Positions 26,799-30,244 of a stretch of DNA of 64,000 bases are shown one piece after another. Positions within the stretch are counted from its first letter, which is position 1; each line of letters opens with the position of its first letter. The notes below the pieces were generated by a model. It searched no databases, had not been told where the DNA came from, and was given only the letters and a program-made list of their open reading frames with translations. The position numbers were made by a program, and so were the translations under genes. This DNA comes from Lichenicoccus roseus (lineage in GTDB: Bacteria > Pseudomonadota > Alphaproteobacteria > Acetobacterales > Acetobacteraceae): assembly GCF_005844085.1 (NCBI RefSeq), contig NZ_VCDI01000003.1:334374-398373 (forward strand). Reading direction: 5' to 3'.

Positions 26799-27608
26799 TC
26801 AGCAATGCAGGCCGCCCTCGGGGGTGCCGCCCGGCGCCGGCCGCCTGGCCTGCCGGATGTAGACGCTGGGCGTGGTGCCGAGCTCGCGCTGGAACAGGGC
26901 GGTGAAGGCGCTGGGGCTGTCATAGCCGACCTCGCACGCCGCCTGCAGCACCGAGCAGCCCTCGGAAAGCCGTGCCGACGCCGTCACCAGCCGCGCCCGT
27001 TGGCGCCAAGCGACGAAGCTCATGCCGGTCTGCAGCCGGAACAGCCGCGTCATCGTGCGCCGTCCCATGCGCGCGATCTCCGCCCAGGCATCGAGATCGC
27101 CGGGCGCGGTCAGGTGGGTCAGCACATGCCGGCAGAGCCGCAGCAGACGCTCGTCGGACGGCATCGGCAGGAACAGGCCGACACGCGGTCCCTCGGCGAT
27201 CTCGTCGAGGATCAGGCGCATGATGCGCCCGTCGCGGCCATCCACCGCATAGTCGGCATCGAGCGTCATGGCTTCGAGGATGAGGGCGCGCAGCAGGCCG
27301 GACACCTCGATGACCTGCGGACAGACCGGCAGGCCGGCCACCGCATCGGCCTCGACATAGAGCGTGCGCAACGAGACGGCGCTGCGGCACAGCACCTCGT
27401 GCTCGACCCCGGCCGGCAGCCAAAGTGCCTTCTGCGGCGGCACCACGTACGAGCCGGCATCGGTGGTGACGATCATCACCCCGGCGGCGGCGAACAGCAG
27501 CTGGGCACGGCCGTGCCGGTGGCGAGGATCGAGATGTCCCTGCGGATACTCGTCGGACAGGGCGGCGACCGGCCGTGGCGTGGACAGGCAGGGAAGGCTG
27601 CAGCGCAT
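26799..27608 (-). CDS. AraC family transcriptional regulator
   Basis: The N-terminal half is a cupin-like sensor (HRHGRAQLLFAAAGVM, VPPQKALWLPAGVEHEV), which resembles the regulators often paired with efflux or esterase genes. The C-terminal ~100 residues contain two helix-turn-helix motifs (WAEIARMGRRTMTRLFRLQTG, and VLQAACEVGYDSPSAFTALFQRELG). The ATG at 27608 was chosen; an in-frame GTG/ATG at 27659/27653 would add 15-17 residues. It converges on the PaiB gene and follows the Fic-like gene on the same strand. The target genes are unknown. Confidence 0.88.
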   Translation of the reverse strand: MRCSLPCLSTPRPVAALSDEYPQGHLDPRHRHGRAQLLFAAAGVMIVTTDAGSYVVPPQKALWLPAGVEHEVLCRSAVSLRTLYVEADAVAGLPVCPQVIEVSGLLRALILEAMTLDADYAVDGRDGRIMRLILDEIAEGPRVGLFLPMPSDERLLRLCRHVLTHLTAPGDLDAWAEIARMGRRTMTRLFRLQTGMSFVAWRQRARLVTASARLSEGCSVLQAACEVGYDSPSAFTALFQRELGTTPSVYIRQARRPAPGGTPEGGLHC

Positions 27609-27677
27609 CGTCGGACTTCGGCTCTGGTTGCGTCCGTCACGGCGATGCAACATCCGCACCAGGATGCGGCGCCTGCC

Positions 27678-28994
27678 CTATGCCTCGGCGGCCTCGAACA
27701 TCGCCACGATCCGCGGCGCCAGGAAGATCCGGTTGCGGTCGTGACGCTGGTATTGCGCCAGGATCTCGTGGCGCACCAGGGTCTGAACCGCCGTGTTCGC
27801 GGTCTGGAACGATACGCCCAGCATCCTCTGCGCCTGGCCGACGGTGACCACCGGCTGGTCGAGCACGAGTTCCGCCAGTCGATGCGCCTGGCTGTCGGAG
27901 CGCACCTGGGCGAGTCGGGCATGCCAGGCGGCGGCGGTCTGCGTCAGATGGCCGATCCTGCGCTCGGCGGCGGCGCAGCTTTCGACCACCGCCTGCAGGA
28001 AGAAGGTCAGCCAGGCGTCCCAGTCGCCGCCGAGAAGGGCCGAGGACAGGCACTCCCGGAACCGCACCCGGTTTGCCAGGAAGATGTCCGACAGGAACAG
28101 CGGCGGGTATCCCGCGTGCAGGCTGATCACCGATGGCAGCAGGAAGGTGATGAAGTCGTTGCCATCGTCGAACGGCGCGATCGCCTCGACCTGTGCGCAG
28201 GCCAGCGCCGCGCGCACCAGCATCGGCAAGGACTTCGCACCGGTCAGGAAGCTTTCAAGATCTTGCAGCGCGCCCGCGATCTCCTGCGGCGGTGGCGGCA
28301 CCACGCGCCAGGGCCCAAGCCGGTAGCCGCCGAGCGTGATCGGCTTGCTGCGCAACATGCCGGCATGCGCGGTGATGCGCTCGTTCAGCCGGCGATGCAT
28401 TCCGCAGAGCGTCTCGATGGTCGGCTCGAGCGACCGGCCCTGGGTGTCGCGAGATTGCAGCAGGCTGAAATAGTAGGCGACGTGATTTTCCGCCTGTCGC
28501 AGGTCGCGCGACGGGGAGGGGCTCTGGTCGGCCTCGCGGGCCAGCAGCATCGCGAGCGTGGCGCTGGTCCCGACCAGCTGGCTTGCGGCGATGGCGTCGC
28601 GCCGGGCGTGCAGCTGGTGCAGCCGAAGTGCCGAGGGCAGGGTGTCGGCCTTGGACTTCAACTGTCCGAGCGCCCATGCCGCCTGTTCAAGTTCCGGCAG
28701 CCAGGATCCCGTCGGCAGAACTCGCGGCAGTGGCCCCGGCAGCAGGGTCACCATGTTGTCGGCCACCCCCGCCGTGCGCATGAAGCGGCGGTCGTCCAGC
28801 CGGCGATCGTCGAACGGCAGGTCGACCCTCAGGGCTTCGTTCGGCGATTCGGTGCCGTGTTCATCGAAGCCCGGGACGCGGGCCGCTTCGGTTGCCCTCG
28901 CGTCCAGAGCGAGGCGTTCGGCCGCGCGATCTTCGCGCAACCTGTCCTCTAGTGTGATCCGGCTTGTCTGTGCAGGTCTTTGCTGCAGTGGCAT
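27678..28994 (-). CDS. Fic-fold protein with degenerate active site
   Basis: The layout matches Fic/DOC adenylyltransferases: an N-terminal Fic_N region (LLPGPLPRVLPTGSWLPELEQA, residues 84-105), the inhibitory-helix position at 137-142, the Fic core with GGYRLGPWRVVPPPP near 222, and a C-terminal winged helix (VTVGQAQRMLGVSFQTANTAVQTLV). The catalytic motif normally HPFxDGNGRxGR reads A273-P-F-D-D-G-N-D280-F281, so the essential His and the first Arg are gone. The inhibitory Glu is Val141 in ASQLVG. Classical AMP transfer is therefore unlikely. It may instead act as a DNA-binding or scaffold protein. Confidence 0.8.
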   Translation of the reverse strand: MPLQQRPAQTSRITLEDRLREDRAAERLALDARATEAARVPGFDEHGTESPNEALRVDLPFDDRRLDDRRFMRTAGVADNMVTLLPGPLPRVLPTGSWLPELEQAAWALGQLKSKADTLPSALRLHQLHARRDAIAASQLVGTSATLAMLLAREADQSPSPSRDLRQAENHVAYYFSLLQSRDTQGRSLEPTIETLCGMHRRLNERITAHAGMLRSKPITLGGYRLGPWRVVPPPPQEIAGALQDLESFLTGAKSLPMLVRAALACAQVEAIAPFDDGNDFITFLLPSVISLHAGYPPLFLSDIFLANRVRFRECLSSALLGGDWDAWLTFFLQAVVESCAAAERRIGHLTQTAAAWHARLAQVRSDSQAHRLAELVLDQPVVTVGQAQRMLGVSFQTANTAVQTLVRHEILAQYQRHDRNRIFLAPRIVAMFEAAEA

Positions 28995-29377
28995 CTCGGT
29001 CTTCCCGATCTGTGGCCAGCCGCTGATGATATCGTCGTTCGCACACTAGACCTGTGTTCCGTGAAATTGAACGCGCAGATGGCTCCGACACTTGTGGGGT
29101 GGTCGCCAAACGGCGACGTTATACTTGCGTTAATGCCTGCATTGGCGGCCGCTAGCCCGCGCTACTGGTAGGGTTCGTTCAACAATATGGGGTCATGCTT
29201 GATTACTGGGTCGACTGCATCCGCACCGGTGGGGAAGTCTGACAGCGTCTGAGTTGTAACAATTCCGTGATACCTCATCCGGAACGATCCGGCTGCCGCT
29301 GCGGCGAAGATGCCTCCGTCGGCAGCCTGATCCTGCGATTGCTTGAACTTGACCGGCCGACCCTCCACCATCGCGCC
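28995..29377. other. Intergenic region between the Fic-like and DUF3108 genes
   Basis: About 380 bases, more AT-rich than the flanking genes, with promoters of the two divergent genes presumably inside. A 6-base stem with a 4-base loop (GTCGCC/GGCGAC, 29102-29117) is visible, without a T-run. Short frames here show no motif and no good ribosome binding sites. Confidence 0.4.
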
Positions 29378-30244
29378 ATGAGACGCTGCTTCCTCCGGCC
29401 GGCTGCGATGCTCGCGGCCGGCGTCCTGCTCGTGGCCGGTGTCGTGCTCGCACCGGCCTGCGCGCCTGCCCGCGACACCGCATCGGGCCCGGCCCCCGTT
29501 GCGGGCGTGCACGCCTCTCCCATCCGCCTCAGCTATGCCCTCTACGGACACGGCTTCCACGTCATGGACGTCACCGTCGAGATGCAGCTGACGCCCGACG
29601 CCTACAGCGTCCAGTTGAACGATCACACTGCCGGCCTGATCGGCTTCATGCTGAATACCAACGTCACCAGTTCGGCGATCGGGCGTTTCGTCGGTGACGG
29701 CGTGCAGCCCATCCGCTTCAAGAGTGCCGGCTACTCCCGCGGCGCGCAGCGCAGCACGCAGCTCGACTATCCGGACGGCAATCCGAGCGTGACGCTGCTC
29801 AGCCCGCCGGAGACCCGGCGCGACCCGGTGCCGATCGCCGCGGCCCACGGCAGCGTGGACACGCTCAGCGCCATCGCCGACCTGGTGCGGCGGGTCCAGC
29901 GATCCGGCCGCTGCGACGGCGACGCCCTGATCTTCGACGGGCTGCGCCTGACCCGCGCCCACGCCCGGACGGCCGGCCAGCAGCCGGTGCCGATGGACCA
30001 TGACGCGACCTACGGCGGCACTGCGCTGCGCTGCGACTTCGTCACCCAGCAGGTCGCGGGCTTCCTGCATAACGACGACGAGGCGCCGCTGCACCGGCCG
30101 CAACACGGCAGCGCCTGGGTCAACCGCATCGTGGCGGGTGCGCCGCCGTTGCCGGTCCGGATCGTGTTCGAGCATCCCAAGCTCGGCACCGCGACGATGA
30201 TACTGACGCGGGTGGTGGCGGGTGCGGCGTCACCTGGCGGCTAG
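29378..30244 (+). CDS. DUF3108 domain protein, exported
   Basis: From the ATG at 29378 the protein is 288 residues and starts with a signal sequence (MLAAGVLLVAGVVLAPACA); the Cys there could make it a lipoprotein, but the lipobox is imperfect. The mature part matches DUF3108: LYGHGFHVMDVTVEMQL, then GRFVGDGVQPIRFKSAGY and a Gly/Asp-rich DGDALIFDGLRL segment. The family is a periplasmic beta-rich protein of unknown role. The frame extends upstream to 29267 without support. Confidence 0.82.
   Translation: MRRCFLRPAAMLAAGVLLVAGVVLAPACAPARDTASGPAPVAGVHASPIRLSYALYGHGFHVMDVTVEMQLTPDAYSVQLNDHTAGLIGFMLNTNVTSSAIGRFVGDGVQPIRFKSAGYSRGAQRSTQLDYPDGNPSVTLLSPPETRRDPVPIAAAHGSVDTLSAIADLVRRVQRSGRCDGDALIFDGLRLTRAHARTAGQQPVPMDHDATYGGTALRCDFVTQQVAGFLHNDDEAPLHRPQHGSAWVNRIVAGAPPLPVRIVFEHPKLGTATMILTRVVAGAASPGG

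Follow-up and report, generated by a model that had tools for sequence, protein, structure and literature searches.

The gene and its predicted protein

At the locus considered here, within a stretch of 64,000 nucleotides of Lichenicoccus roseus DNA (the window), lies a gene for a Fic protein with a degenerate motif, which we call a pseudo-Fic. From its N-terminus, the protein comprises an extension, the Fic_N or inhibitory-helix region, the Fic domain and a C-terminal winged helix (Table 1). All of its 438 codons are open, and the GC content by codon position (0.71/0.49/0.85) matches that of the neighbouring genes, which bears out the view of an earlier note on this DNA that the frame is long, uninterrupted and without sign of decay. 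On the plus strand, antisense to both the pseudo-Fic and the AraC gene, there is a further open frame of 715 codons (window 26805-28952). It most likely exists because third codon positions are rich in GC.

The AraC-family gene that follows is possibly co-transcribed with the pseudo-Fic, two consecutive regulators then forming an operon. The 272 bp between the pseudo-Fic and the divergent DUF3108 gene are a candidate place for an operator. These two neighbours are not common to the other members of the clade described below.

Table 1. Features of the window, with positions in it, and loci of the related pseudo-Fics
Feature	Position or locus	Strand	Basis or source
Pseudo-Fic gene, 438 aa	27678..28994	minus	ORF, ATG start, Pfam Fic + Fic_N, PADLOC SoFic, AlphaFold, Foldseek
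Fic_N region (residues 100-172)	28479..28697	minus	Pfam PF13784, E=7.9e-8, above cut-off
Inhibitory-helix remnant S-Q-L-V-G (residues 138-142)	28569..28583	minus	alignment with SSQIEG of relatives
Fic domain (residues 192-286)	28137..28421	minus	Pfam PF02661, E=4e-10, 40.8 bits, cut-off 24
Flap/target-docking hairpin region (residues 214-236), partly eroded, LRSKPITLGGYRLGPWRVVPPPP	28287..28355	minus	alignment; model strands E224-226, E229-232
Degenerate Fic motif A273-P-F-D-D-G-N-D-F-I-T-F284	28143..28178	minus	alignment, versus HPFxDGNGRxGR
Arg313 at SoFic Tyr241 position (ATP-coordinating)	28056..28058	minus	alignment table; Y241 role from PMC12249575
Linker and C-terminal winged helix (residues 361-433), wing with R420, R422	27696..27914	minus	model, clade conservation
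AraC-family regulator, directly downstream, gap about 18 bp	26799..27659	minus	ORF; Pfam HTH_18/AraC_binding
DUF3108 gene, divergent, upstream	29267..30244	plus	ORF; Pfam PF11306, E=1.3e-10
Clade member	L002/L040		Acidisoma sp. L85
Clade member	L003/L036		Acetobacteraceae bacterium KSS12
Clade members, three copies	L004; L031 3354-4640; L196		all genome G248
Clade member	L005		G250
Clade member	L006/L037		G180
Clade member, split over two contigs	L038/L228		G218
Clade member	L039		Endobacter medicaginis

The protein belongs to the Fic/Doc (Fido) fold family, with 40.8 bits in Pfam Fic and a Foldseek probability of 1.00 to SoFic. Within this family it is of the SoFic type, with Fic_N, Fic and C-terminal winged helix. 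The PADLOC SoFic model PDLC03963 matches residues 81-433 with 180 bits (E=2e-53), whereas the NCBIfam SoFic equivalog NF046030 yields 72.8 bits against a cut-off of 550. The PADLOC match shows descent and architecture, not activity.

The structure prediction proposed in the earlier note still returned the SoFic fold. The AlphaFold model, built with 28 sequences, has a mean pLDDT of 84.1 and a pTM of 0.80; residues 38-70 or so, close to the N-terminus, are disordered. Foldseek placed 7cb8 and SoFic (3zcn, 3eqx) at the top, followed by others including CccR (7xux) and CbFic2 (8cil). Pfam HTH matches all stayed below cut-off. In the model, the winged helix that had been read as intact is indeed complete (H368-377, H385-392, H396-408, E413-416, E423-425), with a recognition helix at about 396-408, FQTANTAVQTLVR, and the protein thus has the C-terminal winged helix that characterises CccR-like Fic-HTH proteins.

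Loss of the catalytic and inhibitory residues

Where HPFxDGNGRxGR is expected, the window protein reads APFDDGNDFITF. Alignment on the canonical motif agrees with the earlier claim that the general-base His is replaced by Ala and the Arg by Phe. The losses go further: G280 has become Asp, G283 Thr, and the second Arg, R284, Phe. APFDDGNDF therefore does not conform to the motif of active AMP-transferases, HPFx[D/E]GN[G/K]R, of which His and Arg are gone in all clade members. That a canonical motif might lie elsewhere in the protein had been named as an objection; the whole protein was scanned, and none is present.

The inhibitory Glu is likewise lost. Its replacement by Val141, also claimed before, follows from aligning S138-Q-L-V141-G with SSQIEG of the relatives, and SQLVG does not conform to the class II (self-inhibited) motif [S/T]xxxE[G/N]. 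The Glu is present in 22/22 canonical rows and in none of the pseudo-Fics.

In SoSofic, ATP coordination has been attributed to E73, H198, R206 and Y241 (PMC12249575). Mapped onto SoFic, the residues of the window protein are V for E73, A for H198, D for G205, F for R206, T for G208, F for R209 and R for Y241. Wherever they could be aligned, E73, H198, R206 and Y241 are lost in the nine pseudo-Fic rows tabulated. The 22 canonical relatives sampled keep the first three without exception, and Y241 in 20 cases.

The FDDGN segment is retained in the window copy, as stated in the earlier note, but not across the clade, where only Pro-Phe is invariant: the structural P199 and F200 are kept in 9/9 pseudo-Fic rows, Gly203 and Asn204 partly, and Asp202 is lost except in the window copy (one other member has Glu). 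The G2 position of the motif varies (D, G, G, Q, R, P, D, P, P), and the phosphate-binding positions have turned hydrophobic or varied. The target-docking flap is absent or shortened in several members. In L005 and L006, Pfam no longer detects a Fic domain at all, which places the window copy among the less eroded ones.

A clade of degenerate Fic proteins in Acetobacteraceae

Nine related Acetobacteraceae proteins, at most 39% identical to the window protein, form one clade with it. The searches covered family, order and class as well as genome contigs. Since the family and class searches were samples, and each species is represented by one genome in the collections, what is known of the clade's spread is a minimum. 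In the scan of genome contigs, a single-protein query found no match and an alignment query five loci. The best matches in the plasmid collection are only 31-32% identical to the window protein, those in the phage collection weak. In its own genome the pseudo-Fic is the sole Fic gene found; by recorded kinship, its genus comprises a single genome.

None of the relatives has an intact motif; they read APFEFGNGIVSR, MPFDYGSGLMAW, APFEQGNQMLCQ, QPFGSGNRQLAW, APFEEASPQLAR, QPFNILGSDLLMR, APFGVASPMLAR and APFEFGSPVLAR. The nearest are 37-39% identical to the window protein and equally degenerate, which dismisses a lone recent mutation; a nearly identical homologue with intact HPFxDGNGR, the other finding named earlier as an objection, did not turn up. 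By recorded kinship, Acidisoma sp. L85 and G248 are of the same genus, and the latter carries three divergent pseudo-Fics. Two of these flank a gene for a glycosyltransferase of 1031 aa, a homologue of which lies near the Endobacter pseudo-Fic.

In the tree, nine degenerate sequences fall on one side of a branch with a support of 100/99. The figures become 99/98 if the motif columns are omitted, 100/99 if the four most divergent rows are dropped as well, and 97/92 with the tenth member, L196. Long-branch attraction is thus dismissed as the cause of the clade, which survives the removal of the longest rows and the motif columns. The substitutions, which the earlier note had wished to see checked for conservation as a clade, are accordingly clade-wide: ten proteins lie on one branch side with 97-100% bootstrap. 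The window protein shares with the others this placement, the loss of E73, H198, R206 and Y241, and the winged helix with RSDSxA and SFQTAN. A profile of the clade scores 500-578 bits on the six members used to build it, and 280 bits on an independent member versus at most 222 on canonical relatives.

All canonical loci scanned at first keep HPFxDGNGRxGR. A further 40 weaker matches were read directly; most have the motif, with a few single exceptions including L248, L256, L270 and L275. Three of these, L248, L256 and L270, were placed on the tree, where they are scattered among canonical sequences, apart from each other. L248 (G322) reads ISPYLDGNGSLGR and keeps the inhibitory Glu; L256 (G155) reads IQPFLVGNGRLGR with SSRIDG. 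The motif losses of L248 and L256 are independent of the Acetobacteraceae pseudo-Fic clade and lie inside canonical clades.

Conservation was compared by domain instead of by dN/dS, synonymous sites being saturated at identities of 39% or less. Among 22 divergent canonical proteins, the catalytic loop has a mean pairwise identity of 82%, the Fic core one of 55% and linker plus winged helix one of 33%. The nine pseudo-Fics show 39%, 38% and 49%, respectively, and the regions outside their winged helix have mean identities of 25-39%. The winged helix is better conserved than the Fic region in 31/36 pseudo-Fic pairs versus 3/231 canonical ones, a large difference, although the pairs are non-independent. 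RSDSxA of the linker, VSFQTAN of the recognition helix and the wing residues are near-invariant in five full-length members; in L004 the recognition helix is less conserved. Judged by these identities, conservation in the clade is inverted, with the winged helix on top and a pocket that has drifted.

A probable pseudoenzyme and putative regulator

One of the nearest comparisons is SoFic itself (Shewanella oneidensis SO_4266, 3eqx/3zcn; in E. coli, Sofic is an anti-phage AMPylase). SoFic and the window protein have the same fold, with N-terminal inhibitory helix region, Fic core and C-terminal winged helix, yet E73, H198, R206 and Y241 are all replaced in the latter. Fic and a C-terminal HTH are also combined in CccR (7xux), a toxin and autorepressor of the Fic-HTH kind from Yersinia pseudotuberculosis. 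CccR keeps the FIC motif and AMPylates FtsZ, whereas the motif of the window protein is degenerate; the two are 16% identical in structural alignment, and no operator was found for the window protein. Among experimental precedents for the regulator role proposed below, CccR comes closest. It represses its own promoter via the HTH, at an inverted repeat of 10 bp whose spacer measures 26 bp, and the catalytically dead H192A mutant still represses; a dimer-interface mutant was also tested, and repression was not restored (PMC9755527). CbFic2, too, binds DNA through its HTH (PMC10628234). By analogy, the natural pseudo-Fic clade resembles a CccR H192A fixed by evolution.

We consider it rather probable that the window protein is a pseudoenzyme, the Fic domain of which would act as the dimerisation or sensor scaffold of a DNA-binding regulator. 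This view is built on what the sequences show: a monophyletic clade that has lost its catalytic, phosphate-binding and inhibitory residues together with the Tyr, intact ORFs, the inverted conservation and the predicted SoFic fold. We infer from them that the protein does not AMPylate, that it binds DNA, dimerises and regulates transcription, and that it might bind a ligand. A switch to DNA binding would be expected to leave just this pattern, a winged helix conserved above the rest beside a drifting pocket, and to this extent the earlier suggestion of a regulator acting through its winged helix holds. A shared operator, however, did not emerge: in the upstream regions of eight members, dyads (spacers up to 36) and 9-mers were not above shuffles. 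Nor is a target gene conserved; AraC and DUF3108 genes adjoin the window copy, secB2-pyrF other members, and still others lie elsewhere.

The C-terminal domain of SoFic can control catalysis instead of binding DNA (PMC12249575), and a conserved winged helix could therefore reflect protein contacts. One may envisage a pseudoenzyme that acts by binding proteins and not DNA, for example an inhibitor or decoy that either pairs with active Fic toxins as a heterodimer or blocks access to their targets, the winged helix being a protein-contact or localisation module. SoFic proteins do dimerise, and their C-terminal domain touches the AMPylase domain (PMC12249575); degenerate Bartonella FIC domains such as that of BepC work through partners, enzyme activity being undetected (PMC8401265); and G248, G250 and G180 also have other Fic-domain genes. 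The window genome, G129 and G071, however, are without another Fic gene, and as the sole one in its genome the window copy is not obviously the partner of an active Fic. Moreover, the surface under most constraint is the recognition helix with the wing, not the Fic interface, and several members have a missing or shortened target-docking flap. We regard this alternative as unlikely. An altered chemistry, e.g., deAMPylation via Asp280, is suggested by the resemblance of PFDDGND in the window copy to PFxxGNE of Bep8, where the G2 glutamate was proposed as general base for this reaction (PMC8401265). That glutamate is described as strictly conserved in Bep8, whereas G2 is unconserved in the clade. 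Most members lack the metal-binding Asp, and the phosphate-binding positions are hydrophobic or varied. The analogy with Bep8 was dismissed on account of the unconserved G2 acid; such a chemistry, very improbable in our view, could hold for the window copy only.

Long branches, nearest known relatives of only 39% identity and the isolated degenerate copies elsewhere in the family (L248, L256) might evoke a decaying pseudogene, or a functionless ORF held open by high GC. Yet the frames are intact in most members, in several genera; GC by codon position is coding-like; the place beside secB2 is conserved in five genomes; and the winged helix keeps a mean identity of 49%, with a recognition helix near-invariant in most. 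One domain selectively conserved on long branches is not neutral decay, and this reading strikes us as quite improbable. There remains the neighbourhood. A subset of Acetobacteraceae genomes has two SecB genes, the other genomes of the family one, and the surroundings of secB2 are conserved, comprising an M20 peptidase and in many cases pyrF and trpF as well. Five genomes, G071, G250, G180, G218 and Endobacter, have their pseudo-Fic divergent to this second secB (L033, L034, L035, L039, L227), and except in Endobacter homologues of pyrF and trpF also follow, a setting that suggests vertical inheritance in these four. The arrangement could mean a functional unit with a SecB-like chaperone, similar to toxin-antitoxin-chaperone modules. 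However, eight other sampled genomes have the second secB without any pseudo-Fic (L230-L237), which led us to reject the pairing, and in G129, G248 and the window genome the only SecB does not adjoin the pseudo-Fic. The adjacency thus looks like an inherited position, and a chaperone module appears most improbable.

If the protein is a DNA-binding regulator, its history might be pictured as follows. The clade would descend from SoFic-type (class II) Fic AMP-transferases and would have lost AMP transfer in an Acetobacteraceae ancestor. With the engine gone, the inhibitory Glu would have been free to go, because a dead enzyme needs no brake. The pocket residues may then have drifted; the Pro-Phe turn stayed, as did the helices on which the fold depends, and what selection maintained would be the C-terminal winged helix. 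The protein would recognise a particular site on DNA, probably in the form of a dimer joined by its Fic part in the manner of SoFic and CccR, and regulate transcription of its own gene, of other genes, or of both. The old Fic pocket could be a mere scaffold, or the site for a ligand or partner.

Degenerate Fic domains as such are not new, nor are Fic-winged-helix regulators. Clades with lost residues have been reported (PMC4454073), as have Bep5, Bep8 and BepC of Bartonella. The latter resemble the window protein in their degenerate motif, kept fold and retained Pro-Phe and small residues (PMC8401265), but they are secreted, host-targeted effectors with BID domains, whereas the window protein is chromosomal and carries a winged helix. 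In 2009, Kinch et al. (PMC2686095) noted that the DUF1612-HTH_13 proteins (RHE_PE00001 family, Rhizobium plasmids) join a winged helix to a remote Fic-like N-terminus without Fic motif. The window protein, in contrast, keeps recognisable Fic and Fic_N domains. Membership in this family was rejected: NF040876 gives 29.4 bits (E=4.6e-7) against a cut-off of 250, DUF1612 does not match, and BLASTP against RHE_PE00001 is not significant (E=0.57). On these scores DUF1612/RHE_PE00001 is another degenerate lineage, not the family of the window protein. The DUF1612 profile also weakly matches a canonical Acetobacteraceae Fic, L011 (E=0.002; RHE_PE00001 = L112 176-1312), in agreement with the 2009 note. 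Our search of the open-access literature found no description of the Acetobacteraceae pseudo-Fic clade, which appears to be undescribed there. Whether it amounts to an undescribed Acetobacteraceae family of one-component regulators with a catalytically dead Fic as sensor or dimerisation domain, i.e., a phage-defence-type AMPylase lineage turned DNA-binding regulator with a fixed recognition helix, we consider an evenly balanced question.

A practical consequence is that a Fic or SoFic profile alone can mislead annotation, e.g., towards an AMPylase or a phage-defence gene. So far, Fic pseudoenzymes have come to notice mainly in remote sequence families or among the secreted effectors of Bartonella. 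In the present set, a change of function would be visible inside one bacterial family, the catalytic loop having become variable and the winged helix the most conserved part, and the clade may offer a clean test case for the passage from a toxin-type enzyme to a regulator and for the role of the winged helix in SoFic-type proteins.
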